Program-made: the position numbers and the translations under genes
Shown here: positions 24,515-63,692 of the stretch, piece by piece
Position numbering within the stretch: position 1 is the stretch's first letter
Layout of the letters: each line of letters begins with the position of its first letter
DNA from: Panopea generosa
Taxonomy: Eukaryota > Mollusca > Bivalvia > Adapedonta > Hiatellidae
Length of the DNA: 64,000 bases
NCBI GenBank assembly: GCA_029582155.1
Contig: CM055895.1
Span: 51,737,250 to 51,801,249, forward strand
Direction of reading: 5' to 3'
Notes under the pieces: model-generated
What the model was told of the DNA's origin: nothing
What the model saw: only the letters and a program-made list of their open reading frames with translations
The model's database searches: none

Positions 24515-25813
24515 TTATGTGGAGCCGTTTTTCAGGATTGAATATATCATTACTGATACAATGCAATTGATAGCATTCATACAAACAAAACAGTAGATAT
24601 CAAACGTCTTTCCGACAAGTTTCCATGTTATCATTTTAATAGAAGTTCCATTGTCGTCGTTGGCCTGATTTGTATCTTTGATGTGGGTTTTATCAATTTC
24701 ATCAGTATTGTTTTCTTTTTCATCGTGTCTATTTGCTTCCATTTCAACTCGTGCAGTTTTCTTTTTAAAACATCGAAATCTTAAATATTTAATCAGTTGT
24801 TTTATCATCTTTGGAACATTCGTATCTCTTTCGTATACACGGAGGGATACAATACATAGAATCATGATACAAGTACTGTAAATCATCAAAAACAACAAAT
24901 AAAAGTACATGATCGCCATTGGACTAGAGCTTGATGGTACGTTGTCATTGACAATACCCATGTACACGATAAATGACAAAAACATGGTCACTGCTACTGA
25001 TAATCGCTCACCAGAGTTAGACGGCATCAAGAACACGCAGTTGTTTAATAAAGAGAGAAAGATGAGTGGCCAAACAATGTATACCTCGTAAAAAGTACTT
25101 CTTCGTTTGAGACGAAGCTGTAACCTGACGTATTTCTGTACATCGTCGGAAAACCGTGTGTAATTTATAAAAGAACTTGTTGCTAAGATATCCCACTCAC
25201 TGTTTTCTGTTAAATAGTTCGTGAAGAGGCGTTCATTTGTAGAATGCAAAATTAAATCAGATGCAAAAATAGCCCCTGGTGAGAGATCAAGTAAGCAGTT
25301 TTGTTCATCAAATGGGAAATAGGTAACATCTACCGAACATGTCGATTTCACCACCATTCCTGGTGACCAGCTAACGCTTCCGTCATATTGAATTACAGTC
25401 ATGAGTGATATATTTCCAATCTCCTCAATTTTCTCCGCTAATTGCAGTGGGTAAATTTGTGGTTTCCATACTACTTCTGGCGCTGCGTAGATGTAAGATT
25501 TACCGCCGTATGTTGTTTTATCCCATACAAGCCTCTCGTCCGTCCACGAAAAAGAAAAACTCATACTTGTGGAAATAACTCCAGATATTTGGTTGAAGTC
25601 ATTGAGACTGATTATATACAAAGACACTCCAACGTATGCAGTTTCACTTTGGTTCAAGACAGGGAGCAGATCCCTGTTATAACCGGTAAATAGTGTCGTG
25701 TGCAGGTTTTGCACCTGGGCCAAGGTTGCCGATAATGACGAACCAAAATGGGTTGATAGAAGTCCGACAACTATTGCCCATCGTAAAAGGGTGCCTTTAG
25801 TAAGCATCATCAT
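24515..25813 (-). CDS. nAChR-like Cys-loop receptor subunit, gene 1
   Basis: Ligand-gated ion channel subunit of the nicotinic family, 432 aa in one exon, acting in the plasma membrane as part of a pentamer. Visible parts: signal peptide 1-29; extracellular domain with loop D FSWTDERLVWD (Trp90), Trp116 and Trp149; canonical Cys-loop Cys159-Cys173 with 13 residues between; M1 about 241-263; M2 about 269-293; M3 about 298-323; a hydrophilic loop; M4 about 403-427. M2 keeps Glu at -1', Ser2', Thr6', Leu9', Val13' and Asp20', as in cation-selective channels. Loop C lacks the vicinal Cys pair, so it is not a classical alpha subunit and its ligand is unknown. N-glycosylation sites: 54, 134 and 217. 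A splice acceptor (CTCTCTTCAG) ends just before the ATG, and five more in-frame codons may come from the exon at 27120. Confidence 0.93.
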   Translation of the reverse strand: MMMLTKGTLLRWAIVVGLLSTHFGSSLSATLAQVQNLHTTLFTGYNRDLLPVLNQSETAYVGVSLYIISLNDFNQISGVISTSMSFSFSWTDERLVWDKTTYGGKSYIYAAPEVVWKPQIYPLQLAEKIEEIGNISLMTVIQYDGSVSWSPGMVVKSTCSVDVTYFPFDEQNCLLDLSPGAIFASDLILHSTNERLFTNYLTENSEWDILATSSFINYTRFSDDVQKYVRLQLRLKRRSTFYEVYIVWPLIFLSLLNNCVFLMPSNSGERLSVAVTMFLSFIVYMGIVNDNVPSSSSPMAIMYFYLLFLMIYSTCIMILCIVSLRVYERDTNVPKMIKQLIKYLRFRCFKKKTARVEMEANRHDEKENNTDEIDKTHIKDTNQANDDNGTSIKMITWKLVGKTFDIYCFVCMNAINCIVSVMIYSILKNGST

Positions 25814-27119
25814 CTGAAGAGAGAGAAAGAGGTAAAAGTAATATCAATACAATTATGTTTCTGTTCTTTTCACACAGTATAATAATACACTACATATTCT
25901 GGTTAAGTAAAATAGGAAAAAACAAGTTATCGTCCTTAAATAACTTAAAGCCGATAAGTTTAGTGAATACTGATTATAAAATTACAAGCAAGGCTATAGC
26001 GAATAAAATCAAAACATATTGCAACACCAATTATTAATAAAATAACTCTATATGCAAATAAAGATGAAAGTGTTTGCGGTATTTAAAGTAATTGAAACAT
26101 ATAAGTAATGAAAATAAGCCTGAATTTATATTCTGCTTTTGAATGTATTGATCATGTGTATTTTTTTTTAAATTCTCACATAATTCAATTTTGGAAATAT
26201 TGTTAATTATCGAATAAGTGTTTGATTTAAATATTTAATTATTGTATAAATCGGTTTAAAATTATTTTGATAATGAAAGTAAAATACGAGGTGTCTTCAC
26301 GGTATAGTGAGAAAGTGCTCATTTTTCTTCATAAATCATCGCAAGACGATGAAACTTTCAGAATTTGTAGATTTATGGATTTTTTAAAAATTGGTTACAA
26401 ACAATCGTTGTATTTCACGAAATGCTATCGCAACGGTAGTCAACGTAACCATGACCAGATTTTTTAAACGTTATACTAAAATGCGCAAAACACACAGTGC
26501 TACATTCATGTCAAAAAACATTTTTACCAAGTACATTTTAATACAAACATCTCACAATTATATTTGTTACATAAGACATACAATTGTAATTACATATTAA
26601 TACCCCTGAGACACACATTGATACTTAATACAAAAGTTAATCAATTATATTTAATGCATGAAGTATCTCATAATTCACATAACACATTTATTGTAATACT
26701 ACGATACATATTTTATTAATTCACACGAAACACAATTAACATCTAATACATTTAATGAAATGAAAAAACAACATAACGTCTATGGTACTATTTATTGGGC
26801 GGATATAGATTAAAGATGCTACAGAAATCAGAACTATTTGTCCAACAGGAGACGTTTGCAAAATACACAGGCACCATCACAGCATAAACATAGCCAATAT
26901 AGAGATATATCATATAATAAACACGAGACATACATACAAACAACGTGAGACAAAAACGGTATACTCTGGTGACGAGGTTTATCAGCTAAGTCTCTAATTA
27001 TATAAAATTGACAAATCGGTTTTATCAAAAAACCTTTTTTGAGATATGGGGTCTATCGTTTAATTCATGAGTAAATTGATGTGTTTATACAAAACAAAAA
27101 CGTAATCCGAATTTCTTAC
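25814..27119 (-). other. Candidate intron of receptor gene 1
   Basis: In gene sense it begins GTAAGAAAT (donor after GGGAG at 27120) and ends TTTCTCTCTCTTCAG at 25814, giving 1,306 bases with GT..AG ends. The interior is AT-rich with no coding sequence recognised. Confidence 0.6.
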
Positions 27120-27134
27120 CTCCCATTTCATCAT
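27120..27134 (-). CDS. Candidate first coding exon of receptor gene 1
   Basis: The minus strand reads ATGATGAAATGGGAG followed directly by GTAAGA, a strong donor. Joined to the acceptor at 25814 it adds MMKWE in frame to the large exon, extending the signal peptide region. The 5' UTR would run upward from 27135. Alternatively the exon is wholly untranslated and translation starts at the ATG triplet at 25813. RNA evidence would settle this. Confidence 0.5.
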
Positions 27135-27734
27135 AGGTAGTTCGTTTCTTCTTGTGTCTATAGACGTCTTTGATGTTGATCGTGTGTCTGGTTTAATGAA
27201 CGAGTTTGAACAATCTTGTAACCAACCGTGTTATCATACAAACCGGAACAACTAATAATTTACCAATAATGATTGGTATCTAAACAATAGCTATAACGGT
27301 TAAATAAATATGAATCAAGTATTGAATTGTTTAACAAGCACTTTAGCAACCTCAATATTGACGTGTAAAATGGGTTTGAACTAATGAGGTACCATCGAAT
27401 CATTAATGACAACATATAATTATTTACACAATTTCAACGGTTTAAATTCTCTGCTAATAAGCTTGTCATATCAATAATGGTACGACACACGTATATATTG
27501 TTTTTGTTAATGATTTTATTTTATATTACGCTTAACAAGGTCGTTTTCACTCTAAAGGTAAGAATTGTTTATACAAAAAGTGTAAAATTTGTGTTTCTCT
27601 GAGAAACAAATTGTTAAGTGATTCCTGTTTTGGTTTGTTTACATACGTTTTCCTAACATATGTGTGTCCATAAGCGCGCATGTTTAATGTAAAATTCTGC
27701 ATATTTTGTTGAAAAGCACTTACCTTCCATATAG

Positions 27735-28520
27735 CGCCGTAGATACTACAAGTGTGTCAGATACGTAAGCATATTTTATACAACTCCGCAGTTACAATCA
27801 GTGGTGTCAGAAACGTACCTTTAAGTACCTTTTATTCAGTTTCGTAGTTACCACCATTGATGTCAGATACGCAAGTATCTTTTATACAGCTCCGCAGATA
27901 CTGCTAGTGTGTCAAATACGTAAGTACGTGTTATTCAACTCCGGATATACAATCAGTTATGTAAGATACGTAAGTACCTGCTATGTGATATAAATTCGGA
28001 GATACAACCAGTGGTTTCAGATACGCAACCATATTTTATACGACTCCGGCGATACAACCAGTGGTGTCAGATACGCAACCATATTTTATACAACTCCGGC
28101 GATACAACCAGTGGTGTCAGATACGTAAATACCTTTTAAACAGCTCCTTAGATACTACCAGTAGTATCAGATACGTAAGTACATTTAATACAACTCCGTG
28201 GATACAACCAGTGGTGTTAGATACGTAAGTATATTTTATAGAACTCCGTGGATTCAACCAGTGGTGTTAGATACGTAAGTATATTTTATACAGCTCCGTA
28301 TACATAACCAGTGTTGTCAGATACGTAAATACATGTTATACAACTTCGCCGATACAACCAGTGGTGCCAGATACGTAAATACCTTTTATATAGCTCTGTA
28401 AATACAACCATTTTTGTCAGATATGAATGACCTTTTATTCAACTCCATATACACAGTCAGTGGTGTAAATACGTAAGTACCTGTTATACAACTCCGTAGA
28501 TCCAACCAATGGTGTCGTAT
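27735..28520 (+). repeat. 50-bp tandem array 1, about 16 units
   Basis: Units read approximately CTCCGTGGATACAACCAGTG then GTGTCAGATACGTAAGTATA then TTTTATACAG. The anchor GTGTCAG recurs at 27755, 28014, 28064 and 28314, mostly exactly 50 bases apart. The array lies about 600 bases upstream of the candidate first exon of gene 1. It is the reverse complement of the array at 60918-61810, so both have the same orientation relative to their neighbouring receptor gene. Confidence 0.92.
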
Positions 28521-28547
28521 ATGTACTGCATTTGTATTGTGTAATAG

Positions 28548-28670
28548 ATAGTGTTGGCTGCTCACGCAAGACGTTGCGTGTTCGATCCCCGCGCGACCTG
28601 ATGCCTCTCACAAAACAACTCTTAGTACTGGTTCTACCCAAGAAGCAAACTCGAGAGCGGTTTTTATAAC
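28548..28670 (+). mobile_element. tRNA-derived SINE
   Basis: A TGTTGGCTGCTCACGCAAGA head (A-box-like) is followed by GTGTTCGATCCCCGCG, a good B box, and then a body with TAGTACTGGTTCTACCCAAG. Reverse-orientation relatives of the TACTGGTTCTA body appear near 38300 and 44990. It adjoins tandem array 1. Confidence 0.6.
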
Positions 28671-28799
28671 TTAAAGCTTTTATCGCAATTGAGCTAAAAT
28701 AAATGAGTAAACTAGTTGTATTGTCAGTACCGTCACTTTTATAATACGACAATTTCTTCTTCAGACAGTATTTAAAATGTCGTCACACTAAAGTGTCAC

Positions 28800-28905
28800 G
28801 TTACAGTTATATATATGTGTCCTGTCCAGTCGCATTATACTGACATCGGGCCGATCTAGAACTATTCTCAATGTGCCGAGCTCCAAACAAAGAAAGTAAG
28901 TAAAC
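28800..28905 (+). repeat. Dispersed repeat fragment
   Basis: It contains GTGTCCTGTCCAGTCGCATT and ATACTGACATCGGGCC, wording I recognise from a common bivalve interspersed repeat. Family assignment is from memory only. Confidence 0.3.
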
Positions 28906-29403
28906 TAGAGTGCATTCAACTATCATCCGCACTGCTTATATGGTTGTTTGATTATTTAGTTGGGTATTACTTTATTAGATAGTTTAATGTTCATGGTTTG
29001 TTACTCGCAGAAGTCTGTAAAACGATATAGTACACATATTATCAGCGGTAGATACAGTGACATATTAGCATTACATGTACGGGTAATAACTGGTCTAATA
29101 TTGACGAATATTCCATTGCTCAAGTAATGGGCCCCCTCTTAGTTCGTTCTTTGAAATTGCTGAGAAACCAAAATCGGCACATTCTTCATTACAATGCATA
29201 ATAACATTTCTTGTAAAAGAAGAAGTGAAAGATCATATTGACAAATATTTATCTGATGAACACATTTTCAATGATATTTTATGTTTTTTTTAACATTTGT
29301 TTGCGTATTGGCACAATAATCACTTAACCTTGTACTATGATTGGTGCTTTTTTTCAAAAATTGGTACAATTTATTCACGAAACGACTCCACTACAATGTA
29401 ATA
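28906..29403. other. Non-coding, nothing recognised
   Basis: AT-rich sequence without features up to the right end of the second tyrosine-recombinase retroelement. Confidence 0.35.
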
Positions 29404-29474
29404 TAGGTCTTTGCTACACTCCTTTGATATAAATATCAATATGCTATAACCAGACGAGCTGTTTATTGAGATAC
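29404..29474 (-). repeat. B2 repeat of the split direct repeats
   Basis: It shares CAATATGCTATAACxAGACG and the flanking words GTCTTTG and TACACTCCT with 30283-30358 on the same strand. Confidence 0.6.
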
Positions 29475-30090
29475 AATGCAGTCTGAGATATACAAAAGAG
29501 CAAAGAGATACATTTTGTATATTCACTAAATTTTAAACAATAGAATTTTCTCCATATTTTCTTATGTTGAAAATTAAACAAAAGTACTGTATTGATAACA
29601 AATCTGGTACATATGCAATCTATTATTTTTTCTCTTTCATAGAAATGTCCATCCACGAAATGCTAAAGCAAAACACTTTACTATTCATACATATATTGTT
29701 AAAAAAAAAAAACAACACTATTTTGTAATATCACTTACGTTTAAACGATATTCACATCTCTCTCTACTAATGTTAAAAGTAGTTTTAACGACAAAACGAA
29801 ATTCTTTTTCTGATTAACTTAACTCGAACCGATTCGCCCAGGAAAAAACGGAGACAAAAACCATGTGAACTTAGTACGAAAAACTCTGGAAACCTGTACC
29901 CGTTTGTCAATCGCCGGATCGCTTGAATGTCGGGCCTCATTCATTGTGGATATATGGTTTGATATATATAAATAAAGTTTATATAAACATTTTACATAAA
30001 AACATTCCAAAGTATAAAAAAATGCCGAATAAGTTCTACAAAATGAAAAACGAACATGAATGAATTTAAATATAAATTTCTTAAAATGTT

Positions 30091-30358
30091 TAGATGTAAC
30101 GTGTACATAATCATCCGGTAGAATGGCAAAATAAATTTCTACACTTCTTTTATACATGTATTATCGCTTACATGACTAACTTTGTGTGCGCTAACTGACC
30201 AATACCACTGTATTGTACCTGGTACGTTACGCGAGAAGACAAATATGTCAAGCTATACTTACGAAACACGTGAAAAAGATAGTCTTTGATACACTCCTAT
30301 GATATTAACAACAACATTACACCAATATGCTATAACAAGACGAGCGGTTTAAAATACA
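30091..30358 (-). repeat. A2 and B1 repeats
   Basis: 30091-30281 matches 36216-36378 (TAGATGTAACGTGTACA start, shared TACGTTACGCGA, and a shared ACGAAACxCGTGAAA end). 30283-30358 matches 29404-29474. The two lie back to back, as expected for the internal B1-A2 junction. Confidence 0.75.
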
Positions 30359-30439
30359 AAAAGAGCGAACTGGAAGGAAAATCATGTTGACATTTCTCAT
30401 GTTTACACAACAATTACGAATTAAACGACTTGGAAACCT

Positions 30440-31462
30440 CCAATCTCCTCTCCAAGGAGTTGACAATATAGCCATCTTTGCTATTTTCACCCTTCCAACG
30501 CTCATGCCTCTTCTAACACCTATCATTTAACCCCGCGTTTGCTGCCATCGTAGCACCCTCTGACCTTAGAAAATGAATATATGTTCGACTCTCCAATGAC
30601 CTATTTTAACCTCGACACGAGACATTCCCTAGACCTGCATAACTGAGTGGTTTATTTTTTAAAAATAAGTCTACATTTAGTTGTTGGTCTGTAACAAGGC
30701 TTAAATAAAAACACATCTTCTGTGACTGATAAACAACATACTTCAAATTAACGTTTAAACATCGCGTACGGGCATGCTATTGTATCACCCTTCGACACGA
30801 CAATTTCATCACCTTTGCGTTATTGGTCAGTCTTACTTTTCCTAATGAAAATAGAAAAATAATCATCGTAAAACTTGATATCATTACAATGTTAACTTGT
30901 CAACTCATCAAATCTTAAAAATCCTGAACATGCTAATACTATCATACATAAATCTCTGATTACAAGAATATCATTACTTTCTGAATATTTTTCACATAAT
31001 ACAACTAGAGTTTCAGAAGTAATGGGTTCCTTCTTGTTCACAGGTTTGAAAATTGTCCTCTTCGAAGCTCCAACAAATTTGTAACGAACAGATTGTTAGT
31101 GGGGTTGGGTTAATTCTTCAAAGAGTGTGCCGACTTAATACTATACACAGTAGCAAAAATCACTGAACTTGACGTGCGCTTGTCCATTAATTCAGTTAGA
31201 TATAGCGCAATATGGATGGGCTATGCTGGAATGGCAGATCCGCCTTTTGAAGATATAGATTTGTCCCACTTTTTCCACAACAAGTATAATGCTTAATGTT
31301 TGTATTGTCAATCTTTGACATCACAAGAAATATCGCCATCTTAGACGGCAGTTTTTCGAAACTAGTGCTAGGTATCTCACTCTCCTGTATCTCATCGTCG
31401 ATGCAACTTTTCAATTTCAGGCCTGCACAAATAGAGAAAAAGAAATATGAATGTCTAAACAA
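30440..31462 (-). pseudogene. Tyrosine recombinase, multiple stops
   Basis: From 31462 the minus strand reads IPSTSFEKLPSKMAIFLV, then SKIDNTNIKHY, the N-terminal core-binding start of a bivalve DIRS-type recombinase. Further frames read VNKKEPITSETL, ILVIRDLCMIVLACSGFLRF (around the first catalytic Arg), IRKSKTDQ and, near 30530, LRSEGATMAANAG and KRHERWKGENSKDGY (the HxxR/Trp/Tyr end, with some catalytic positions altered). Several in-frame stops and at least two frameshifts prevent function. Confidence 0.75.
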
Positions 31463-31656
31463 ATAATCCTTTAACTCAGTATACCATATTTGACCATGCC
31501 ATGCTTCTTTAGTTTGACATACAAAATTAACGTGAGCTTATTCAGTTTTCTTCTCACCACCTGTAAATAAAGAGCCCGAAAACTTCCAAATGGTTACAAC
31601 TTCTACCCCTTACCACGCTTTGTCAGTTCCAAGGCTGAAATACAAAGACATCATGT

Positions 31657-33501
31657 CTAGATCAATCGTATTGCAATAAGATCAAAATGTAACGGTCTGC
31701 CATCAAATATGCCATTTCTGCCCCTACCACGCCTCGTCAGTTTGCCAGGCTGAAATACAAAAACATTGTGAACAAAATCTGATTTCATCTTACCATCTGG
31801 TAACAATAATGGAGAGAATGGGGCCGGCTTCCAGATTGATATAACTAAAGTACATTTACATTTCTGTTTCACGATTTTTCGTACATACTCGACTGCTAAA
31901 AACTGGCGGCGGAACAATCCAGTTATTTTTTCCCCGACCATTTGTAACAGAATGCGTCAATTCCTGATGTCCCTTGGCAACAATACTTTGAGTTAAATAT
32001 TTTACATTTAGAATTTTAATCATCACAAGCAAAACGGTCGCAAGTTTGGTCCCCATTTTTCTTCTAATATAAAGAAAAAGTCATTTCTAACCGACCAATC
32101 ATCGCTATTGGTACAACGGCTGAGGAAATCTGCCTCCGAGTTATCTGCTCGTGGCACCCATTTTTGGTAATAAACTCATATAACTTTTCTACACTATCGT
32201 CTACTTTAACTGCAATCTCTTGCAAATATGATTTTCTACTACCGACCTGCAAAATGGTCTCTACGTTCTTTTTATCTGTCTTAACAATAACTTTTTGCCC
32301 TTCCAGGCTCTTAATTGAACTGTGCAAAACTCTATGCACTGCCTCTAGCTCTCTCCACGTGGAACTTAAACCACTTAGTCTTCGACTAACAACCTACCAC
32401 TTGACAGTCTTCATTTCCATCAATAAATACTCCAAAGCCAGCTCCACTGGCATCGCAATAAACCACGCTCTGGTCGTCAGTTTCTTCATTCTCACTTTTC
32501 ACCAAAGTTTGACCAAGCTTCTCTCTATTTAATGACCGTATACTTTCTCTCCAAAACGTCATTTCATCCAATGCTTTGGAACTAACTTTTACCGGAGCCG
32601 CCAAGCTGGCACGACTTATAACACACTGGTACAGTGATCTTGTTTCTCAGTCTGACCAATTGCCCTATTACACTCAGCTGACCAACTAAACATGCACTTT
32701 TTCTAACAGGAACTTTGAGTTCCCTGTTACTTACTTTACCTATCAATTCTCATAAGAGTATTTCTGTTCTACCAATACGCTCTTCTGTCTCTACAAATGT
32801 GCCTTCCAAGGTGTTCCAAAGATAACCCAACCATACAATTGATTGGCATAGCGTCCAATGACACTAATCCTCAGCAAGAAGAAAATCAAAATCTACTAAA
32901 TCTTGATAATTAAATTCCAATGCTTTTAATGCTTCGTTAAAATACCATCTCCACCGAACCAATCATCAAGAAAGAGTATCACTTTATAACCAAGAGATCT
33001 CCATATTTTAACTGCAACTCTCAATAGTTTTGTGAATATAAGTCCCGCTGTGGAGTTCCCAAAGGCTAAAACGTTAAATACGTAGTAATAGGTAACGTTT
33101 TCAGTTTGCCAAGAAAAGTCCAAGTAAGTCCTATGATTTGGAAATACCATAATATGATGATATGCTCCGCTAATATCAAAATTAAACTCATAATCTCCTT
33201 TTGAGAAAAGTCGTATAGCAACTGATTGATCTTCGAAACAAAACATGTATTTAAAAAGCTCTTAATGTATATGTCTGCAGTCTAAACCAAGACGAGGCTT
33301 ACCTGACCTTCCATAGGCAATTGTGAGTGGATTTACTATGTAAGGTGCCTCCTTAACCTCGGAAATATAGCCCTTTGAGAGTAAGTTACTGATCTCACTT
33401 GTTACAAATGCAGGGTCATTTCGAACTTGTAACCTTGACTTACCACATATAACATAGCCACTTGCATCCGCACCTTTCCAGTGTACATAACAACTTACCA
33501 A
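31657..33501 (-). pseudogene. DIRS-type RT and RNase H, broken
   Basis: The RT starts at 33501-33262 (FVTSEISNLLSKGYISEV, PYIVNPLTIAYGRSGKPRLG). It continues in a second frame at 33246-32926 (FDISGAYHHIMV with the motif A Asp; FNVLAFGNSTAG, motif B; VILFLDDWFGG, motif C). RNase H follows at 32604-32386 (VVYCDASGAGFGVFIDG) and 32339-32064 (KVIVKTDKKNVETILQV). Past it, NNWIVPPP (31941 region) and CTLVISIWKPAPFSPLLLPD match the linker usually found before the recombinase. At least four frame changes are present. The 'FLDD' catalytic motif is kept. Confidence 0.85.
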
Positions 33502-33734
33502 CTGGTGTAATAACTTCTAAAACCTGCAATGTACTGGCTTTAATGCAGTCAAAATCTTCAACAATAGAATGCAACATATATCTCCTTATCTGATTATCCT
33601 TATTTGCATGACTTCTCTCCGGAATCACTGCCCTACACTCCATTTGCCGTATCCTGAACGCCCACGCCGGAAACACACACAAGGTCGCCTTCCTTGCGTA
33701 GACTGGTTCCATCCTTGTGGAGACTGGTTCCAAC

Positions 33735-33889
33735 TCTGCCTTGGTTACCTTGGCTCTGCGACGACGTAATAGTAGAAAACGAGTCTCAGTGTGCGGAATG
33801 CACGGATGTCCCCGATACCGCTTTTCTTATTTCGCTTTCCGGTCAGCTTTAATCTGAGCCCGATAAATCTTTTTCTCATCGTCGGAGTC
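33735..33889 (-). pseudogene. Distal part of the gag-like ORF, cut off by a hAT insertion
   Basis: It reads DDSDDEKKIYRAQIKADRKAK then a stop. The acidic-then-basic wording matches the end of the gag-like protein of bivalve DIRS elements. The proximal part lies beyond the inserted hAT element. With one copy of the 5-bp target duplication discounted, the two parts are in the same frame. Confidence 0.75.
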
Positions 33890-33894
33890 GTCGG

Positions 33895-35792
33895 CAGGGG
33901 CGGATCCAGGATATTTTCTCAGGGGGGTCCAAATTTGAATTTCATACAGTATTGATGTGGATGTTAGCCTTTTCATTTTAAAACATTTCCTGTTCTAACC
34001 GCGCGGTAGTTTCCATTTCTAAAACAGTATTTTTTTCTCTCTTTTCATTTTTTTTCTAATCCATATTAAACCGGTGTATTGAAAAGCCAAGCTATATTCA
34101 CACATAGGTCTAGACTTTTAATACCATTGCTTTAATTTTCATATTTTTTATTTTGTTTTTCATACTTATAGTTTGTCTATTTCAAAATCGAGTTTTAACC
34201 ACTAGGGTGTCTTCAAGTTAAGAAATGTATTTATTCTTATTGCCTAGATTTGATGGGTCATTCTCATTCAGCAATCTCGGATAAAAAGACTACGCTCGAC
34301 TCAAAAAGCATTCTATTGCTTGTCTTAATTAATCTCTGTACAATATCATCAAGTTCAAAATCCATTGAATGATGTAAATTCATCAAAGCCAGCCCAGCTA
34401 ATCTCTCCTCACGTGTATTGTATTGCACATGTAATTCTTTATTCTCCTGAGCCCAGAAAAATATCTCTTTTCTTCGCATGAAGTAATCGTTAAAACACAA
34501 CCTACGTGAATAAGTGTCTTCATATTTGGAAACATGTCTTCATCCACTTCGTTGTAAAGGGATATCAGGTCAAACTGTCAAACTGATCCAATTTATGACT
34601 TCCAATTTTTGACAATACCTTTTTCATTCTTTAATTTCCTTTAGTAAATTCTGGGAATAAATGCAGTCAAGATCAGTTTCCCAGAACATCAGCTTATTAG
34701 AAAGTCTAGTCAGCTCTTCTTCGCCAAGTTCAGTTATGATTGATGGTAATAAAGAGCAGATATAATATGTTGTATCTTCGATTTGGAAGCGAGATCTTAA
34801 CTCTTGGAGTAAATAATCAAGAAATGAAATGGACGAGGTATACTTGAAATATTCCTTTGGTTTTGTTGTGTTAACATTCGCTCTATGACGTTGTTTTGCG
34901 CGCCGTGGGAACTTTGATTTCTACTTCTAGGTCATTTGCAATTTGTGTGGCATCAGAGAAACAAGTTTCAAATTCGATGTTCACCTCTCTACGTATTTCA
35001 GATATTTTTTCAACATGATGATCAAGTATAAAATGTGTCAAAACACACATGCCTGTCTACACACTGGGTTTTACAAAATCCAAATAATTTCTTCTTCACA
35101 TATTCAGTGCCTTCCATCTCTAGGATATATTCAAGAAACGATTGGGGGGGGGGGGGGGGGGGGGTTAGGAGATTAATCAAAGAAAAGAAACACTGAGTAA
35201 ATGACATCAATCATTTTTTTCACTTGAGGTAATTTGCATGCTAAAGCATGAGATTGAGAACAAGACTTCCACAGTGAGTGTAGATGGCCAACTTGTTCAA
35301 TAGTTTAATTCGTCATTGACACCCCTGTTTTTCCGAATACATAGCCGCAGCCACATCATTAGCATGTTCACGTATTGCATCTACTGAAATAGCATTGCTT
35401 AGAAACGTTCCAACTATCTTTTCTGCTATAGCTTCACCAGTTGTTCTTTTTAACTGAATAAAGTTAAAGAACTTTTCCATTCCGACTGCAGATTTTTTTT
35501 ATATTGGATGGATGATATGTGCACACGGACATTAATACAATTATTTGTCGTTTTTTTTTACATTTAATGAGAATCGTTGTAGATCTACACGTAATTCATA
35601 TTCCTATCAAATAATAGTTAGATTCTATATCTTTCCACCCAGGTTGTGAGTTTATGTAGATCTAGTTTTATTACATTTTCACAGTAAATTTTACTATAGG
35701 TCTATATCTTTAAAATTCCAGGGGGGGGGGGGGGTTCAGAACCCCCTGACACCTCCCCCCCACACACACACACACCGCTGGATCCGCCCTTG
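33895..35792 (-). mobile_element. hAT transposon (hAT5-like), 1.9 kb
   Basis: The left terminus CAGGGGCGGATCCAG and the right terminus (reverse complement CAAGGGCGGATCCAG) match at 14 of 15 positions. The 5-mer GTCGG flanks both ends (33890-33894 and 35793-35797), a 5-bp target duplication as in the hAT5 group. The interior has a decayed hAT transposase on the minus strand, 21- and 14-G runs and a short CA tract. It is inserted in the gag-like ORF of a DIRS-group element, so it is younger than that element. Confidence 0.88.
34264..35480 (-). pseudogene. hAT transposase (ZMYM1-like), decayed
   Basis: Reading down the minus strand: near 35480 KFFNFIQLKRTTGEAIAEKI and DAIREHANDVAAAMYSEKQG (the RNase H-like core, in place of the usual YDGA block); a mid-region at 34880-34690 with EYFKYTSSISFLDYLLQEL and ITELGEEELTRL; then SCEEKRYFSGLRR and EERLAGLALMNLHHSMDFEL, the hAT C-terminal dimerisation block, ending at 34264. 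Stops and indels break it, including a 2-base insertion near 34400. The N-terminal zinc finger is absent, so this is an internally reduced, inactive copy. Confidence 0.8.
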
Positions 35793-35797
35793 GTCGG

Positions 35798-36165
35798 CTA
35801 AGGGATGCGCCTCATACGCCTGAACTACAAGCCACCCATTATCTGATATATCAGCTAACTTAATTAATTTTTGACGATAATTAACAATGTCAATACCTTC
35901 AGATATTTTAAGTTGCGCCGACGGCAGCGGTTCACATGGAGTGGTTTGAAGGACATCACGTAGATAGCCGTCTGCTTCCTTCAGTCTGTCCAACACTGCC
36001 TCGTTGACTGTGTTGTTCCTTGTTGCCCTTCTTATGAAACGTGTAAGAGTCGCACGGTGTCAATTTATGCTGAATTTTTGAAAGCTGAGACTGGGATATC
36101 TCCCTCTGCGTTGTCTGCATTCGTTCCTCGAAAGAAAACAGCTTTGAAGAAATAAGTTCTTCCAT
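35798..36165 (-). pseudogene. Gag-like ORF of the DIRS element, proximal part
   Basis: It starts MEELISSKLFSFEERMQTTQ, a coiled-coil-like N-terminus, then FHKKGNKEQ. A frameshift near 36005 moves to the frame reading VLDRLKEADGYLRDVLQ and YRQKLIKLADISDNGWLVV. This wording is typical of the first ORF of bivalve and cnidarian DIRS elements. The reading frame is cut at 35798 by the hAT insertion. Confidence 0.75.
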
Positions 36166-36215
36166 ACTGCTTAACAGTTAATTTTCGTTCGCCATGAGTG
36201 ACTGCACTGAAAAAC

Positions 36216-36378
36216 TAGATGTAACGTGTACAGAATCGTCCGGTAGAATGACAAAATGAATTTCTACACTTCTTTCATACATGTATTATCTCTTGCACGA
36301 CTAATTTTGGACTGAGTACGTTACGCGATAAGACAAATATTTCACGCTATACTAACGAAACGCGTGAAATAGATAATC
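36216..36378 (-). repeat. A1 repeat of the split direct repeats
   Basis: Direct-repeat partner of 30091-30281 at the 5' end of the element. It is shorter by about 25 bases because of an internal deletion after GACTAA. Confidence 0.75.
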
Positions 36379-38300
36379 TACTTTTATACCAATTATTGTC
36401 GATATATAAGTATGATATAAATTTATTAAATACCTTAAAGCCTCATTATACTTCCGAAATGCACAATTTTTGATAATAACAGAAATGATTGTAATTGAAT
36501 GTGTTTACAGTATTGCTAAAACCATTCCTGTAGACCCCTTAATAACTGTTTTTGAAAAAAGCGAGAAAATAAATAACTTGTGTATTTCTTAGACGATCGG
36601 ACCGAACTTTTAACTTTTGCTTACATTTTTGTAATTCTGTAATGACTCTGTTGCTTTCTGTTCTGTTGCCAGTGTTCGGAAGTACACACAGTGGTAGTGT
36701 GCGGATTAAGACCGTGCGTGAGATAAGGGGCTCATTAACAAGATTAGACAAGTTATGGCTTCACTAATATTGTGTATCGTGTTGGGTTTTCTTTTTTTTT
36801 TAAATGTATTGATGTCTGCAATAAAACTGTATCGAACATAGTACGCATTATTTTATTTATACACACTGAAAAACAATGAGTACGGAATACTAGTTTGGTC
36901 TAGTAACTCTTGCTCAGGATCCTCCCTTGAATATACGCGTTATAAATACTATCGCACGCGCTTTTACGTCACAAATCACTTTATCGTAGCCAATATTGAG
37001 AGGCTACCAAATGTGGTTTGTTTAGTACAGTTATTAAAAAAGAAATTTTACTTTTAATTTTATGTGGCCGTTTCGTCGCTTACGTGTATTAAATTAACTC
37101 GCGGGTTCCAGTTCATTAATACACTGAGGAGAATAAAGGGGATGTTCTTAAAAAACTATCTAACCGCAAGCGATTATTTGATTTTTAACCGCATCCCCTA
37201 TAGTTCCCATACTATGTTTCTCTCTGAAGTGAATTGATCATAAATTACCAACCGACGCGTTTCCGAACAAGCTTCGCAACTCCCCGTTTTCTGCCGAAGT
37301 TGTTTATCGGAAAGGGACGAACATTTATTTGTAAACAAAACCCGTTCTTAATTATGTACTTATAATGTGCTTCATATTTCTCTTGCAAAGTCTCTCATTG
37401 ATCAAATAAACATGTTTTCTATCATCTTGAATAGTAAAACTGACTTAAATTAAAATTAAAAACGACCATTTCGGAAGTTTAATGAGCCTTTATTTTTTTT
37501 AAATTACATATTTATATTTTAGATTTACTTGAGAGTGACGGATGAAAATGAAAATCTACAACATCGATTGCTTTGCAAGATTTGTTTTGCAAACGCTTTT
37601 AACAATATTTAGTCATGTTGCCATAACGTCCTTTTTTCCGAGTGTGCTAAGGACTCACGACTATGGAATCAACCACATCAATAGCAATTGATTTAGCCAT
37701 AGCTTCTGATACCAGGATCTACACTTAACACATCTGTACCTGTGTTGTGTGAGGAGGCCGGTAGAAACATTTAAACAAAGTGATAATTTAAGTTCGATTT
37801 TGGAAAAATATACTAAAGTGGTAAGCATTTCTGTCATATTTCTACCAAGATTACTCTGCAATATATTTTAAACGTTTGTCGCATTTGTAAATGAAACTTA
37901 TTAGTGACCAATAATAATCCCCATAGATATAAATACAATCATATATAAATACTTTATTGTGTAATACCGTATCCATCGTGTCGTTATATATGACTGAATA
38001 TCATCTGCATTGATTAAACAGCTCCTTTATACGATTGTAATACACCACGGGTGTATATTTGATTTGAGTAAGGGTATATACAATATTTCTGAATAATGTA
38101 CGAACTACACTTTCTAATTATCTTTTGGCATCGATGTACTGGAAATGTAGAGACACAAAATATCACTGAAACTTTATTGTTGTCAGTACTATTGAAATTT
38201 GAATTTAGCTGTTTTGTTTAAGTTTAAACATATAATAATTATTTTACATCGATTCTTAAACAATATATTACAACTTATATAAACCACGCTCGTCTTTCTA
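36379..38300. other. Intergenic, no gene recognised
   Basis: A few GC-richer patches (36880-37000, 37240-37300, 37620-37780) are present, but no frame resembles a known family and no splice pair is convincing. Confidence 0.3.
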
Positions 38301-38405
38301 GCTAGAACCAGTACAAAGCATATGCGGAAAAGTGTCTCGCTCAAAGATACAACACAAAACCGTTGAGGACTCTCCGGTCCAGGTTCGATTATCTACCATA
38401 GGACC
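38300..38405 (+). repeat. SINE-like fragment with a B-box word
   Basis: It contains AGAACCAGTACAAAGCATAT, then GCGGAAAAGTGTC, then GGTCCAGGTTCGATTATC. A related order (AACCAATACAAACACATGCG...AAAGTGTC...GGGTCCGATTGACC) occurs at 44988-45130, indicating one dispersed family. Confidence 0.45.
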
Positions 38406-38409
38406 ATGC

Positions 38410-40060
38410 GCTAATTTAACAAATCGATGCAACAGTGATTCAATATTTAATCAGAGACATTTTGCTACATACAGTCTGTATTGATAGTGTTGTGTAACTT
38501 TGCTGTGTTGCGTCCCTTGATGTTACTCTCCTATTTAGAAGGTGAGAAAATAATAAATCGTATGTTTTACGTTCGCTGCGCATGCCTGTTAGTTTTGTGT
38601 TTCTCTGCCGAAAAATCAAATAAAAACAATACACATTCCTATGTAGATATATCATTATACACTCGATACTAAAACAGATGTGACCGAATGCGGTACGTCA
38701 GTATGGATGTATTACATACCACAGATGAATGCTGAGTAATGGTCATGTGACTAGGTTTTAGATGAATGAAAAATCACTAATTTTGCTTTTGATCGGTTTA
38801 CATCTGTCTAATTTATTGAAGAGTTTTAGGAATAAAAAGAAGGAATATATCAAACTAAATTGTGTTACAAAGCCTACATATTTTTGTTTTAATAATAAGT
38901 AATAATATATATTGGAAGGTTGGATAATCTTGAGGTAACGTAGATAACGTAAAGCAAATAAAATATCCATTTCAACGATTGATATCGAAAGAAAAAGGAC
39001 GTAGTATATACATAAAGTTATGTTAACTTAAAATGTATTATCACATTAAAACGAACACACTTGTTTAATACAATAGCTGGAACAGAGACATGGAAAGTGT
39101 CTGATAAAATAGATAAAATTTCGTTATTCGTCAGACACGGCTACATGATCGGCATCTGTATTTGTACGGTCAATACAACAAATAGTAAGACTTGTATAAA
39201 TAACCTTTTATTATTTCATTTTAAAATCTATTTGATTTATTTTATTGTTTGTTTGTTGTGTTGTTTTGTGTGTGACTTATTTGTTGTTGTTTTGTGTGTG
39301 TGTTTTGTTGTTGTTGTGTTGTTTTTTCTTATTGTATTTTTGGTGGGGATGGGCGGGGTGGAGTTGATTGGATTTAACACAATGTTCAACTAGAAACAGG
39401 TAAACATGTATATATGGCATCAAGTGGTATTGCTGGACGATACATAAGGATGAATCTGAATAGAAACGACGTCTTTCCACAAGTAACTGACACACTTCTT
39501 ACATAACTTAGTTTGGCTCAAGCCCATGATCTTAGTGGTGAGAAATAGCACTTAAGATAGCGTCTTAAAAGAACAATGATTCTTATCAGATTTATTATGA
39601 GGTCTACCTCCACCAACAATAGTAGATGCTATATATAACCTGCGATGTGTTGAAAATGGCAATGAACCCAAACATAGTTAATTTATTAATCAAACGTGTT
39701 ATTTTAACTGTACCAAGTTCGTAATAAATATTGTAAGAACTTGTGGTTTAGCCCGTAAATTATTGATTAAACGCATTAAAACTAATTTAAACTATTAGTT
39801 AGTTTAATATTTCAGATAACAACAAATACACGGAAATATCACCAAATTAGAAAAGTCCATAAGGCTCGCAAAAGTAAATATTAAGTATATTTCTCCTACT
39901 CATTTTTCAATGCATTTTTTTTTGTTTTGAAGGTTTATAATTATACCATTTGTGTTAAATTACAATATCACAATCGCTTTGTAAGTTATGTATATTCGTC
40001 ATTTGTGCTGTTAATTTGTTTTTATATTCATTTAGATAAATTCGCACAGAAAGTTCTATA
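38410..40060. other. Intergenic, no gene recognised
   Basis: AT-rich. A TTG/TGT-rich low-complexity stretch lies at 39240-39330. No coding region is supported. Confidence 0.3.
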
Positions 40061-40063
40061 TAA

Positions 40064-40342
40064 GGGTCTGCTGCTAATATTGATGTCGCTAATGTCGCTG
40101 CTGCAGTTGCAGCAGTGGGCATTGGAGCAGGTTATAACATCGCAAAGTCATCTAATCAAAGACAAAGCAATAAGATATATTCATATGTATACACAGTATT
40201 GGTGTTATATGCTGTATTTACATTATCAATGGTTACGATTAATGTTTTAATAACTTATATCCCATTTTACCATGGTCACATAGATTGTTGTGTATTGCTC
40301 GCCTTTATTTGGACGATGTTCAATCAATTAGGACATGATTAG
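40064..40342 (+). CDS. Unrecognised open frame, possible membrane-protein exon
   Basis: After a stop at 40061 the frame is open to 40342. It reads ANIDVANVAAAVAAVGIGAG, a polar stretch SNQRQSNKIYS, a hydrophobic segment (VLVLYAVFTLSMVTINVLI) and a second shorter one (CCVLLAFIWTMF). There is no ATG near the start, so it would have to be an internal or terminal exon. TATAAG at 40058-40063 could serve as the acceptor. The composition is protein-like, but no family was recognised and chance openness is possible. Confidence 0.2.
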   Translation, partial: GSAANIDVANVAAAVAAVGIGAGYNIAKSSNQRQSNKIYSYVYTVLVLYAVFTLSMVTINVLITYIPFYHGHIDCCVLLAFIWTMFNQLGHD

Positions 40343-46132: not shown

Positions 46133-46149
46133 TTCAACCCTCAACTTTT

Positions 46150-47900: not shown

Positions 47901-48056
47901 ATTTTACAGTGTTTTTGTACAATATGGGAATATATTATACGAGTATGTTTTGTGGTGAAAATCATATTGGACAAGACACCGTGTGCACCAATTCCAATAA
48001 GACTTTCACCACAATACGTACAATATATTCCCATATTGTACAAAACACTGTAAAAT
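47901..48056. repeat. Foldback, about 65-base arms
   Basis: The left arm ATTTTACAGTGTTTTTGTAC...GGTGAAAATCATATTGGA pairs with the right arm TCCAATAAGACTTTCACC...ACAAAACACTGTAAAAT around a loop of about 20 bases. A few mismatches and indels are present. A second copy lies at about 48711-48864. Confidence 0.85.
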
Positions 48057-58958: not shown

Positions 58959-60215
58959 ATGATGCCCAAAATGAATGACTGGCGGCAGACGATCCAACTA
59001 GGCGTATTGCTTGTTTGCTTTGACGTGTCATTTTCAGCATCACTAACCAAAGTTCAAAATCTACACTCTACACTTTTGACTGGTTATAACAAAAATCTAC
59101 TCCCACTTTTGAACTTCAACGACACAGTTTATGTTGGGCTAAACGTATACATAATAAGTCTGAATGACTTTGATGAACTTTCGGGAGTAATTTCAACCAC
59201 GATGGGTTTTTTGGTTACTTATATTGATGAGCGTTTGGCCTGGGACCCGTCACTGCATGGGAACATATCATATATCTATTTATCGGCAAATGCTATTTGG
59301 CGGCCACATATTTTCCCATTTCAACTTGCAAATGAAATCATCAGCGTCGGTGATGACTCGTTAATGATGACCGTGAATTATAATGGTACAGTTAACTGGA
59401 AACCCGGAATGGTTGTGAAATCGACTTGTTCGGTTGATGTAACATATTTTCCATACGATGAACAACACTGCATATTGACTCTTTCTGTTGGTGTTTTTTC
59501 AAGTTCAGATTTATTTTTATATTCTGCTAATGAAACACTTCAAATGTTGTTATATAGTGAAAATAGTGTCTGGGAATTATTAACGACCAGTTCCGTAAAG
59601 AATATTACAAATTCTGTTGTTGTAGAATTGCGTTTAAAACGGAGAAGCAAATTTTACGAAGTTTATATTATATGCCCACTGGCTTTTATTGCGGTGTTAA
59701 ATAACTTCGTGTTTCTGATGCCTTCAAATTCCGGTGAGCGCTTGTCCGTGACAGTGACGATGTTTTTGTCCGTTATTTTCTACATGGGTATCGTCAATGA
59801 CAACGTCCCAGCAAGCTCCAGTCCCATGTCGATCATGTATTTCTACTTGTTGTATCTGTTGATTTACAGTTCAGCTATAATGATTCTTTGTACATTTTCC
59901 CTTCGCATGTATAATCGAGAAACCGATATATCTGGAAGAATTAAACGGTTAACATATATATTGCGATTTCGGTGTTTTAAACAGTGTACAATACACGATA
60001 ATATTAAACATGATTTGTATAATGATCATGAAGGTGACAAAGATATATCGAAAGCAGAGGAAAATGTTTTAACTGAAACTGTAAACTGCAGTACTTGCGA
60101 CCAAACAGTAATTTCATGGAAACTAATTGGAAAAACATTTGACGTGTACTGCTTTGTTGTTCTTCTACTTGTCAACCTTACTGCATCGGTCGCCGTGACA
60201 ATTATTGCTTATTAA
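58959..60215 (+). CDS. nAChR-like Cys-loop receptor subunit, gene 2
   Basis: Ligand-gated ion channel subunit, 418 aa in one exon. The ATG at 58959 follows a splice acceptor (CAAATATTCCAG), so the ATG at 58920 lies in the intron and is rejected. Visible: signal peptide 1-27; Cys-loop Cys157-Cys171 with 13 residues between; Trp114 and Trp147; M1 about 233-254; M2 from Glu260; M3 about 289-314; M4 about 397-418. M2 residues match gene 1 (Glu -1', Ser2', Thr6', Leu9', Asp20'), implying cation selectivity. Loop D has Tyr (TYIDERLAWD) where gene 1 has Trp, and loop C is shortened and lacks vicinal Cys, so acetylcholine binding by this subunit is unlikely. Any upstream exon was not found. It is on the opposite strand to gene 1 and in the same orientation as pseudogene 3. 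Confidence 0.93.
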   Translation: MMPKMNDWRQTIQLGVLLVCFDVSFSASLTKVQNLHSTLLTGYNKNLLPLLNFNDTVYVGLNVYIISLNDFDELSGVISTTMGFLVTYIDERLAWDPSLHGNISYIYLSANAIWRPHIFPFQLANEIISVGDDSLMMTVNYNGTVNWKPGMVVKSTCSVDVTYFPYDEQHCILTLSVGVFSSSDLFLYSANETLQMLLYSENSVWELLTTSSVKNITNSVVVELRLKRRSKFYEVYIICPLAFIAVLNNFVFLMPSNSGERLSVTVTMFLSVIFYMGIVNDNVPASSSPMSIMYFYLLYLLIYSSAIMILCTFSLRMYNRETDISGRIKRLTYILRFRCFKQCTIHDNIKHDLYNDHEGDKDISKAEENVLTETVNCSTCDQTVISWKLIGKTFDVYCFVVLLLVNLTASVAVTIIAY

Positions 60216-60279: not shown

Positions 60280-60917
60280 TTTGTTGATCAGTGTAAGTTA
60301 TACAAACACTGAATATCTACTTATATGCGAAGAAGCATCGCCATGTGTTATGTCTAAGATTACAAGTGTGCTTTGATACAATAAACCAGGATTGAATCAA
60401 GACTACGTAATAGAGCATTGGACATTTATAACTATCATATTGTTTCGAAACTCTTAAAACAGTTAACTAATTTAATATTCTAGAGTAATATTTGTTTCCA
60501 AATAATTTTAAAATATATCCGACGTTACAAGCATCATCATATTTAAAACAAATGTTTAATAATGTATCTTAAAAACTGGTTTCCATGATTACCAATGCAG
60601 TAAAACCAATGTTGTCAGTAGCATAAACATTTATTCGGGGGAGAAAGATGTAAAATTAAAAATCTTCATTTACAACTAGGGAGAGTCAACACAAATGCGA
60701 GCGGTGAGGAAAAACACACAAGTCATTAAATAATCTGCTTCACAGGCTTGAGTAATCAAATGACACAAACGTTTAAGAAGATGGAAGAAAGAAAGGCATA
60801 ATGGCGATTAGCGAGGTAGACATATGAATGAAATGATAAACGCCAGCTGACTTGATTAAGGATAACGTTCATTGCAACAGTTGGAGATATATATCTGACA
60901 CAGGCGATTATATCTAC
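60280..60917. other. Intergenic, nothing recognised
   Basis: Sequence between receptor gene 2 and tandem array 2 without coding or repeat signals. Confidence 0.35.
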
Positions 60918-61810
60918 AGAGCTGTATAGACGTCATTAACGTATCTTACACCACTTATTCCATATACACAGCTGTATAAAATATACTTATGTATCTGACA
61001 CTATCAGCTGTATATACGGCGCTGTATAAAACATACTTACGTTTCTGAAACTACCGACTGTTTATATGGAGCTGTATAAAACATACTTACGTTGTTTACA
61101 CAACCGGCTGTATATACGGAGCTGTATAAAACATACTTACGTTTCTAAAACTACCGACTGTTTATATAGAGCTGTATAAAATATACTTACGTTGTTTACA
61201 CAACCGGCTGTATATACGGAGCTGTATAGAGTATAATTACGTTTCTGACACTACCGGTTGTGTATACGGAGCTGTATAAAATATACTTACGTTTCTGAAA
61301 TTACCGGATGTATATACGGAGCTGTATGAAATATACTTACGTTTCTGATACTACCGGCTGTATATACGGAGCTGTATAAAATATATTTACGTTTCTGACA
61401 CAATCGGCTTTATATATATAGAGAGAGAGAGATAGCTGTATAAAACATAATTACGTTTCCGACACTACCGGCTGTATATACGGAGCTGTATAAAATATAT
61501 TTACGTTTCTGACACAACCGGCTGTATATATATGGAGCTGTATAAAATATATTTACGTTTCTGACACTACCGGCTGTATATATATGGAGCTGTATAAAAT
61601 ATATTTACGTTTCTGACACTACCGGCTGTATATATATGGAGCTGTATAAAATATATTTACGTTTCTGACACTACTGGCTGTATATACGGAACTGTATAAA
61701 ATGTATTGACGTATCTTACATCATGTGTTTTGTCCACAGAACTGAATAATAGGTATTTCGTATCTGTTATCACCGGTTGTAGCAACGGAGCTGTAGAGCA
61801 GGTACTTACC
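60918..61810 (-). repeat. 50-bp tandem array 2, about 18 units
   Basis: Units read approximately GCTGTATAAAATATACTTAC then GTTTCTGACACTACCGGCTG then TATATACGGA. The anchor GCTGTATAA begins at 60971, 61021, 61071, 61121, 61171, 61271 and 61371, exactly 50 bases apart. From about 61430 the spacing becomes 50-52 through TATATA expansions and a GAGAGA tract. It is the reverse complement of array 1 at 27735-28520. Confidence 0.92.
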
Positions 61811-62797
61811 TTTCTATCATATATGAAGGTATTTAAACCAAGTTGATTGCGTATGTGTTAACAATAAAACTAGAAGAACGTTTAATTCGATTTAATTGTA
61901 TAATCCAGGATATTTATAGTTTATTATGTATTCTATACATTATATACGTAGAAAAGTTATTGACAAATTCATTGTAAATATATTGAACAAGAAATGTAAC
62001 CAACCTGCAGCAACACTATTTCTTAGATTAACACGTCTAAGGTTTAAGCATTTATTTTCTATAAAACAATAACGAGATCTCATATCTACAACAAATTCTT
62101 ACTTTTGAGGCTAGGCAATATACCTTGACATGTGTAATATAACAAAAAGCATCAGTTACTGTAGATATTTCACGTACGATGATGGTCATAACAAACTTGA
62201 TAGCAGAAAAGACAAACCGTATTGATTGTGTCGTTAGTGATTCGCTGGTAACTCAAGCTCGTTTGAACCCATCCAACACGTCAATATTGAAGGTGCTAAA
62301 ATGTTTGATTTATGTAAACATTTCAAGACTTTGTGAGTATTTATTTAACCGCTATAATTATTGTGTAGCTCTCATGTTTCATTGTTATGTATTCGTTAAT
62401 AGGGAGTGAATGTTTAACAACCTTAAGTGTATTTACCGATTTTTTAAAACTCTAGCAATTGATCAGATACAAGACTTCCAGTCAATGCGTCATAGACATT
62501 ACTCAAAAACAGCAGGAAATGAAACGTCACAGCGCGAGAATTTTATCTCGGCCCTAGGGTGAAATAGAAAGATCCAACTGTACAAGAAATAATCATTATT
62601 TGTGTGAAGTTTTTGAAGAATGCTTTATATATCGTGTAATAAGAATTGAAATATATAATAAAGATCTAGTTCAATTCTCTTTGTTCAATGTTTAATATTG
62701 TATCGTGTTTTCTTTACTAAAACAGAAAAAGTAGTCTATTTTGAGAAGAACAAAACCAAATGGTTTGTATTTATACAACCTTTACCTCTCTCCTCAG
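61811..62797. other. Region upstream of receptor pseudogene 3
   Basis: No coding exon resembling the candidate first exon of gene 1 was found. The end matches the gene 1 intron end (ACCTCTCTCCTCAG at 62784-62797). Confidence 0.4.
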
Positions 62798-63692
62798 ATG
62801 TTGATGTTTACTGAAGACATCTTTTCACGATGAACACTAATTGTCGCACTTCTATCAGCATATTTTGGTTCGTCATTATTGCAACCTTGGCAGAGTTGCA
62901 AAACCTGCACACGACACTATTAACTGGTTATAACAAGGATCTGCTTCCTGTCTTGAACCAAAGTGAAACTGCATACGTTGGAGTGACTTTGTATATAATA
63001 AGTGTCAATGACTTTGATCAAATATCTGGTGTCATTTCCAACAAATTACGGCAGAACATATTATACTTACGTTGCACCAGAAGTAATATGGAAACCGCAA
63101 ATTTACCCAATGCAATTAGCGGAGAAAATTGAGGAGATTGGAAATATCTCACTCATGACTGTAGTCCATTATGATGGAAGCGTTGGCGACCACCAGGAAT
63201 GATGGTGAAATCGACATGTTCGGTAGATGTTACCTATTTCCCATTTGATGAACAAAACTGCCTACCGGATCTCTCACCGTGGGCTATTTTTGCATCTGAT
63301 TTAATTTTGTATTCTACAAATGAACGTCTCTCAACGCTATGTTTAACAGAAAACAGTGAATGGGAAATCTTAGCAACAAGTTATTTTAAAAGTAATACAC
63401 AGCGATCATGTATTTCTGTTTTTTGTTTTTGATGATTTACAGTACTTGTACAATGAGTCTATGTATTTTATCCCTCCATTAAACCTGATTAAATATTTAA
63501 GAATGCAGTGTTTTAAAATGAAAACTGCACTAGTTGAAGTGGAAACAAATACACATGATGACAAGAAAAACATTACAGATGAATTGATAAAACCCACATC
63601 AAAGATGCAAATTGGACCAATGAGAACGACAATGAAACTCCTAGTAAAGTGATAACATGCAAACTTGTCGGAAAGACGTTTGATATATACTG
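62798..63692 (+). pseudogene. nAChR-like receptor, pseudogene 3 (paralogue of gene 1)
   Basis: It aligns with gene 1 from the acceptor and first ATG onward. The original start at 62798 meets a TGA at codon 12, where gene 1 has TGG. A base is lost near 62879, at the position of the gene 1 signal-peptide end. The extracellular part is readable (LTGYNKDLLPVLNQSETAYVG) until a deletion near 63030 removes the loop D region. A further one-base loss near 63187 shifts the frame. The Cys-loop (CSVDVTYFPFDEQNC) is kept. At about 63395 a deletion of roughly 85-90 codons removes M1, M2 and the start of M3. The cytoplasmic loop and the start of M4 (KLVGKTFDIYW) end at 63692, after which similarity stops. 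It cannot encode a channel. Confidence 0.9.

Follow-up and report, generated by a model that had tools for sequence, protein, structure and literature searches.

How does the same short tandem repeat come to stand upstream of two receptor genes that lie in inverted orientation, and were gene and repeat copied together? The question is raised by a 64,000-nucleotide stretch of the genome of the bivalve Panopea generosa (hereafter the window; C2:51737250-51801249, in a genome of 1.47 Gb on 39 contigs), in which an intact nicotinic acetylcholine receptor (nAChR)-like gene, A1, occupies 24515..25813 on the minus strand, and a related receptor pseudogene, A3, occupies 62798..63695 on the plus strand, each accompanied by an array of 50-bp units. 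A preliminary description of the window had proposed that gene and array were duplicated as a unit and inverted, and that the array had kept its period while the pseudogene decayed. We refer to the window side as locus A (A1, A2 and A3, with A5 beyond the window end) and to a second site on C2 as locus B, and we call A1 and B1 left-type copies and A3, B2 and B3 right-type copies.

The array of A1 (27729..28525, minus strand) has the same sense as the gene and comprises 17 units including partial ones, while that of A3 (60892..61815, plus strand) comprises 19, again including partial ones. These limits are the cores found by Tandem Repeats Finder (TRF; 27737-28516 and 60962-61720) widened by unit alignment; TRF reported a period of 50 and 15.5 copies for the A1 array, and rows of period 50, 100 and 150 for that of A3. 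The distances originally given, 1.9-2.7 kb upstream of the gene and 1.0-1.9 kb upstream of the pseudogene, are confirmed (1.92-2.70 kb and 1.0-1.9 kb), and the arrays do share their sense in gene orientation and have similar units: 7 of the 50 positions separate the two consensus units, and cyclic alignment of the A1 and A3 units scores 76, against a mean of 18.3 (sd 3.4) for shuffled units, none of 300 of which scored as well. When the window was compared with itself by BLAST, the best inverted match between the arrays had an E value of 7.6e-91, and that between gene and pseudogene 1.4e-125. The inverted pair noticed in the window is correct, and was understated.

Three motif scans of the whole genome, allowing up to 3, 1 and 3 mismatches, placed every match (83/83, 57/57 and 30/30) inside only five arrays; the scan patterns overlap, the second being part of the first and the third covering mainly the rest of the unit, and reversed-motif controls gave 0, 1 and 2 matches. 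Either array used as a DNA query matched only at the window and at C2:2.423-2.456 Mb, which lies within a second copy of the inverted pair on the same contig, 49 Mb from the window (locus B, C2:2.414-2.466 Mb). Locus B holds one array-gene copy more than the window: B1 (minus strand) is intact, with 91% amino acid identity to A1 and an array 3.0 kb upstream, B2 (plus strand) is a fragment of ~70 codons with an array 1.1 kb upstream, and B3 (plus strand) is a broken copy, also with an array 1.1 kb upstream. All five arrays are thus upstream of copies of one nAChR-like gene and in gene sense, with 17, 16, 19, 41 and 43 units of period 50 (partial ones included); the left copies are intact, and the right copies are broken or fragments. 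The preliminary description had held that an array family abundant throughout the genome would count against it, but every motif match sits in the five receptor-linked arrays, and the search it suggested for array-gene pairs elsewhere yielded three more, all at locus B. The 50-bp array is therefore a locus-private minisatellite, with head-to-tail units in varying copy number and no dispersal. If the arrays are of single origin, the five pairings out of five represent one event and not five.

From 16.5 to 79.9 kb in window coordinates, 28.6 kb of DNA can be aligned colinearly between loci A and B. The left part of the copied segment, 16513..48399, corresponds to C2:2414287-2443686 in colinear pieces of 84-94% identity with insertions, and the window stretch 18.2-21.8 kb has no counterpart in the left arm of B. 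Colinearity is broken by several stretches without a counterpart, including that of A2 (58959..60215, plus strand), a second intact receptor gene between the inverted arms with 54% amino acid identity to A1, for which no colinear counterpart was found in the 100 kb of locus B compared. The A3 array starts ~0.7 kb past the A2 stop codon, and A2 is not counted as an array carrier.

The shared sequence extends well beyond array and coding exon. A leader segment between them (27280..27411, minus strand, in A1; 62229..62368, plus strand, in A3; 75% identical) has five matches in the genome, which are the five array loci, with 66-69% identity between left and right types and 92-96% within types. Part of it resembles a tRNA B box; an origin of the leader from a short interspersed element was considered and rejected, its only genome matches being the five loci. 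Homology from array to leader is unbroken between B1 and B3 (65%), and the stretch from leader to exon, 1.4 kb in A1 versus 0.34 kb in A3, is not alignable. Inverted homology also continues 3' of the genes, to ~20.3 kb on the left and past the window end on the right: the 3' flank of A1 (20344..23494, minus strand) matches that of A3 (63837-66746 in window numbering, plus strand) in pieces of 67-81% identity, with 63837..64000 the inverted counterpart of 23494-23332. The B1 3' flank shares a few short pieces with that of A3, and has no match to that of B3. On the 5' side, four comparisons of 12-16 kb each gave no inverted match beyond the far edge of the array, and hence the inverted arms run from that edge to a point ~4 kb beyond the gene. 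Left and right copies share homologous arrays, leaders, coding exons and parts of the 3' flank, in support of duplication and inversion of gene plus array as a unit.

In each of 11 receptor copies examined, a predicted CAG splice acceptor with a pyrimidine-rich tract adjoins or closely precedes the start codon (including window positions 25814, 58958 and 62797), a count that leaves out four further paralogue loci. It stands directly before the ATG in A1 (25814..25835, minus strand), B1, A2, A3, B2, B3 and the paralogues C16 and C3, and 4-7 bases earlier in the paralogues A4, B4 and C7; its pyrimidine tract is weak in A2. A 5'-UTR intron ending here is therefore likely, and, since homology between copies covers the intron side of this predicted acceptor, copying probably proceeded via DNA and not via spliced RNA.

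The phylogenetic evidence agrees on left versus right. The coding-sequence (CDS) tree is ((A1,B1),(A3,(B2,B3))), with support of 99/99 for (A1,B1), 100/99 for the right group and 100/98 for (B2,B3), in which B2 fills only 17% of the columns. The leader tree recovers the left/right split at 100/100 and does not resolve the right group, and array consensus sequences, with 0-1 differences within types and 6-7 between them, match the same split, likewise without resolving the right group. Because CDS tree, leader groups and array classes coincide in this way, array and gene appear to have been copied together. Synonymous divergence (dS) is 0.106 for A1-B1, 0.062 for A4-B4, 0.249 for A1-B3 and 0.275 for B1-B3, an ordering which places the inverted duplication first (0.25-0.28, from B3 only among the right copies) and the block copy between loci second (0.06-0.11). 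The gene-side flanks of B2 and B3 are 95-100% identical, and the tandem copy in B looks later than the block copy, although gene conversion could give the same identity. Between A1 and B1 the ratio of nonsynonymous to synonymous divergence (dN/dS) is 0.40, suggesting that both were probably functional for at least part of the time since the block copy.

Among the array units, mean distance is 0.24 within A1, 0.21 within A3 and 0.29 between them, and at unit positions 20, 32 and 41 the main base differs between the two (the A1-specific base is found in 15, 16 and 12 of 16 A1 units; the A3-specific base in 14/19, 15/18 and 15/18 A3 units). The order of best-matching units is preserved between A1 and B1 (rho 0.95) and lost between A1 and A3 (-0.21), indicating that units turned over since the inverted duplication, with little turnover in A1 and B1 since the block copy. 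Identity taken per 200 columns, in which array units may be misregistered, is 0.83-0.94 in the array and 0.87-0.94 in the noncoding flank for A1-B1; the corresponding values are 0.85-0.94 and 0.95-1.00 (gene-side flank) for B2-B3, 0.79-0.94 and 0.90-0.96 for A3-B2, and 0.73-0.91 and 0.88-0.95 for A3-B3, the gene-side flank ends of these last three comparisons including some coding bases. In none of the four is the array clearly more conserved than its flanks, its divergence being similar or faster. Per-position variability in A1 is uncorrelated with that in A3 (rho 0.18, P 0.22), B2 (0.17, P 0.23) or B3 (0.09, P 0.55), and the least variable windows of the unit are not exceptional (6-mer P 0.46, 8-mer P 0.32). 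Nor did single-strand DNA folding give a consistent signal of hairpins in the units across right-type (z -1.37, -1.40), left-type (+1.38, +1.60) and flank pieces (-0.30, +0.12; two pieces each). The suggestion that the array was retained while the pseudogene decayed accordingly finds no support as an effect of selection, given divergence similar to or faster than that of the flanks and no shared constraint. The simplest reading is that the array is a passenger, with a regulatory role an unlikely alternative.

We consider it likely, then, that this minisatellite, private to the locus, originated next to a single receptor gene and has travelled with it as the DNA was duplicated. The 50-bp repeat would have arisen once, in the ancestor common to the receptor copies, either in its 5' flank or in an intron, and presumably after that ancestor had split from the other sampled receptor lineages, none of which has a matching unit. 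The copied module would comprise array, leader, single-exon CDS and ~4 kb of 3' flank, and it would have been duplicated at the DNA level at least three times: once in inverted form, from which the left (A1/B1) and right (A3/B2/B3) types derive, once when the entire block was copied between the sites at C2:51.8 Mb and C2:2.4 Mb, and once in tandem within block B. The arrays would meanwhile have changed by gain, loss and homogenisation of units, such that left and right lost unit correspondence and gained type-specific positions, whereas in A1 and B1 most units still correspond in order. What is observed is that the array is exclusive to these loci at the sensitivity used, that flanks are shared, that the copies group as left and right, and that units turn over; the single origin of the array, the place of the tandem copy in the order of events and the absence of array function we infer.

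Several points weigh against this account. Each of the five arrays is upstream of its gene, shares its sense and has its near edge at a similar distance (1.0-3.0 kb), and the supposed lack of function is read from sequence alone. The array consensus, 12-14% different between types, seems more alike than the leader at 66-69% identity, for which averaging over many units may be the cause. A strongly diverged array elsewhere would escape the motif scans. Finally, two more distant paralogues, C3 (52 bp) and C7 (25/50 bp), have upstream arrays of other sequence, which pure accident does not predict, yet one in nine random windows also has arrays. The mechanism is ordinary, and the event is seen unusually clearly: a non-coding marker unmatched elsewhere in 1.47 Gb indicates that members of this molluscan-type receptor family were duplicated as stretches of DNA, flanks included, and not by retroposition, and, with an order of events available, the locus is a modest system in which to ask whether gene duplication is driven by minisatellites or followed by them.

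The idea of a mobile or dispersed repeat that reached each receptor by an insertion of its own can be given practically no credence: nothing was found in its favour, there is no match outside the five loci, and the DNA between array and gene is homologous too. It is also very improbable that locus B is an assembly artefact, an uncollapsed haplotype that would leave only one inverted pair; high heterozygosity is usual in bivalves and would favour such an error, but the loci are 49 Mb apart on one contig, their colinear pieces are mostly 84-94% identical with a dS of 0.106 between A1 and B1, and B lacks a counterpart of A2 and of other stretches and carries a further tandem copy. The inverted pair in the window is in any case independent of this question. 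Another possibility, though one that we regard as unlikely, is that the array acts in cis on the receptor gene, as a promoter or other regulatory element. TATAAAA occurs in the unit consensus, and at the gene-side edge of the A1 array is a donor-like candidate splice site, AAG|GTAAGT (27718..27726, minus strand), also present in B1; if it were used, the last units would form exon 1 and be joined by splicing to the CAG|ATG acceptor found at or near the start codon in each of the 11 copies. This is the only 7/7 donor found upstream of intact A1 and B1, the aligned place reads GTACTT in broken A3, B2 and B3, and across 72 kb of random-window strands such donors have a density of 0.028 per kb. However, the last unit, which holds the donor, is degenerate, and at this place the right copies and some units have AGGTACTT, which is two changes from it; the donor may therefore be a product of chance, and its link to the array was spotted post hoc. 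In the upstream stretches scanned, donors of 6/7 or better are absent from C16, C3, A4, B4, A3, B2 and B3, and elsewhere number two at C7 and one each at the paralogue at C2:92.1 and at A2. A regulatory array would further be at odds with the absence of an unusually conserved unit window, of constraint common to the two types and of identity above that of the flanks.

Compatible with the passenger reading is a further proposal, that the arrays are recombination-prone edges which help to set where receptor modules break and duplicate; we give it a low probability. Beyond the 3' end of the gene, inverted homology continues for ~4 kb, yet on the 5' side it stops at the far array edge; a private 34-bp array in B (45/45 genome matches of its motif in locus B) lies at the junction that cuts B2 at ~codon 68-72; a 52-bp array abuts a truncated receptor, A5/B5, at ~codon 250 at both loci; and duplications of sea-urchin Sp185/333 genes are described as bounded by GAT repeats (PMC5103432). 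Against this, arrays of at least 150 bp are not rare (one in nine random 4-kb windows), the junctions are few and non-independent, and the arrays could come from junction repair, or a later loss could have removed the far flank. It is tempting, if speculative, to extend the idea to private minisatellites as seeds of receptor duplication edges, given four arrays (50, 34, 52 and 46 bp, with no detectable sequence kinship) at or near module edges or truncation junctions in one receptor subfamily; if so, a single break-repair process would give rise both to new arrays and to gene duplicates.

Other arrays accompany members of this subfamily. Beyond the window, C2:51807044-51811972 (A5) and C2:2462025-2463637 (B5) each contain the 52-bp array (95 copies in A, 31 in B), a receptor fragment from ~codon 250 and then the 46-bp array, which begins 166-167 bp past the end of A5/B5 similarity. 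The C3 receptor (53% identical) has a 52-bp array (also 104 and 156) at L036:3867-5241 that ends ~200 bp before the CDS and was found by DNA search only at its own locus. The 25/50-bp array upstream of the C7 receptor (L037:4327-4505) bears a weak, unconvincing similarity to the window unit; homology was considered, the similarity exceeding that of most controls (P 0.004; P 0.003 and 0.007 among 21 unit pairs), and rejected as unconvincing after correction, and the failure to find an upstream array in the A4/B4 and C16 lineages also counts against it. General enrichment of arrays before the subfamily was likewise not accepted: arrays of period 15 or more and over 150 bp, in flanks of differing length (about 2-6 kb), occur in 3/10 lineages (A1-type, C3 and C7, as opposed to A2, A4/B4, C16, C2:92.1, C2:71.99, C2:72.01 and C4) versus 1/9 random 4-kb windows, too few to tell.

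As to the genes themselves, the whole CDS of A1 lies in one exon and encodes 432 amino acids with the Pfam domains PF02931 (E=2.7e-38) and PF02932 (E=7.9e-13), both of which exceed the cut-off in A1 and A2. The solved chains closest to A1 are acetylcholine receptor subunits (among the best 60 of 168), and the nearest named proteins are from the clams Mercenaria (43% identity), Ruditapes (42%) and Mactra (41%). Cys-loop receptors are recognized by the spacing motif of the loop, and alpha-type subunits by a pair of adjacent cysteines in loop C. The A1 protein (P0001) has the Cys loop, CSVDVTYFPFDEQNC, with two cysteines 13 residues apart, and contains no adjacent pair (CC), and so is not classed as an nAChR alpha-type subunit. 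It is, judging by these features, an nAChR-like Cys-loop receptor subunit, with putative gating by acetylcholine. A3, whose ATG is at 62798, has deletions, frameshifts and stops, its coding remains being spread over three frames and one piece holding two stops.

Elsewhere in the window, open reading frame pieces at 2834-5298 and 9386-12164 give matches to reverse transcriptase (PF00078, two pieces) and to an integrase zinc-binding domain (PF17921), and Pfam has no match to the piece at 11131-12003. Direct repeats of 97-99% identity form two sets (47891-48710 / 48700-49520, and 14887-15362 / 15910-16385 / 47151-47624), a 147-bp tandem array of 6.7 copies with 95% matches occupies 6218-7205, and shortly before the window is a 15.3-kb array of a 94-bp unit (L019:1 to L020:5349).

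Among the literature matches listed, no title or abstract opening describes a minisatellite that moves together with nAChR genes. The expansion of molluscan nAChRs has been described in terms of intronless or intron-poor genes in tandem arrays, with retroposition and tandem duplication (PMC6896357, BMC Genomics 2019), in an article whose main text contains neither 'repeat' nor 'promoter'. The receptors studied here resemble that expansion in their single-exon CDS, local clusters, broken copies and lineage-specific duplication, and differ from what its relevant passages describe in their DNA-level inverted and long-range block copies with a private minisatellite. A partial parallel is offered by the Sp185/333 cluster, for which GA and GAT microsatellites are described on both sides of genes and duplications (PMC5103432): in both systems repeats are orientated with the genes and lie at duplication edges, but here a single 50-bp minisatellite lies 5' of each copy and not 3' of it, with its distal end at the 5' edge of the duplicated segment. 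The KIR genes, mentioned in the same article as tandemly arranged with a minisatellite in the first intron, are similar in that a minisatellite near the 5' end has been copied with a gene family; unlike the tandem KIR genes, the Panopea copies are inverted and dispersed, and their array is only possibly intronic.

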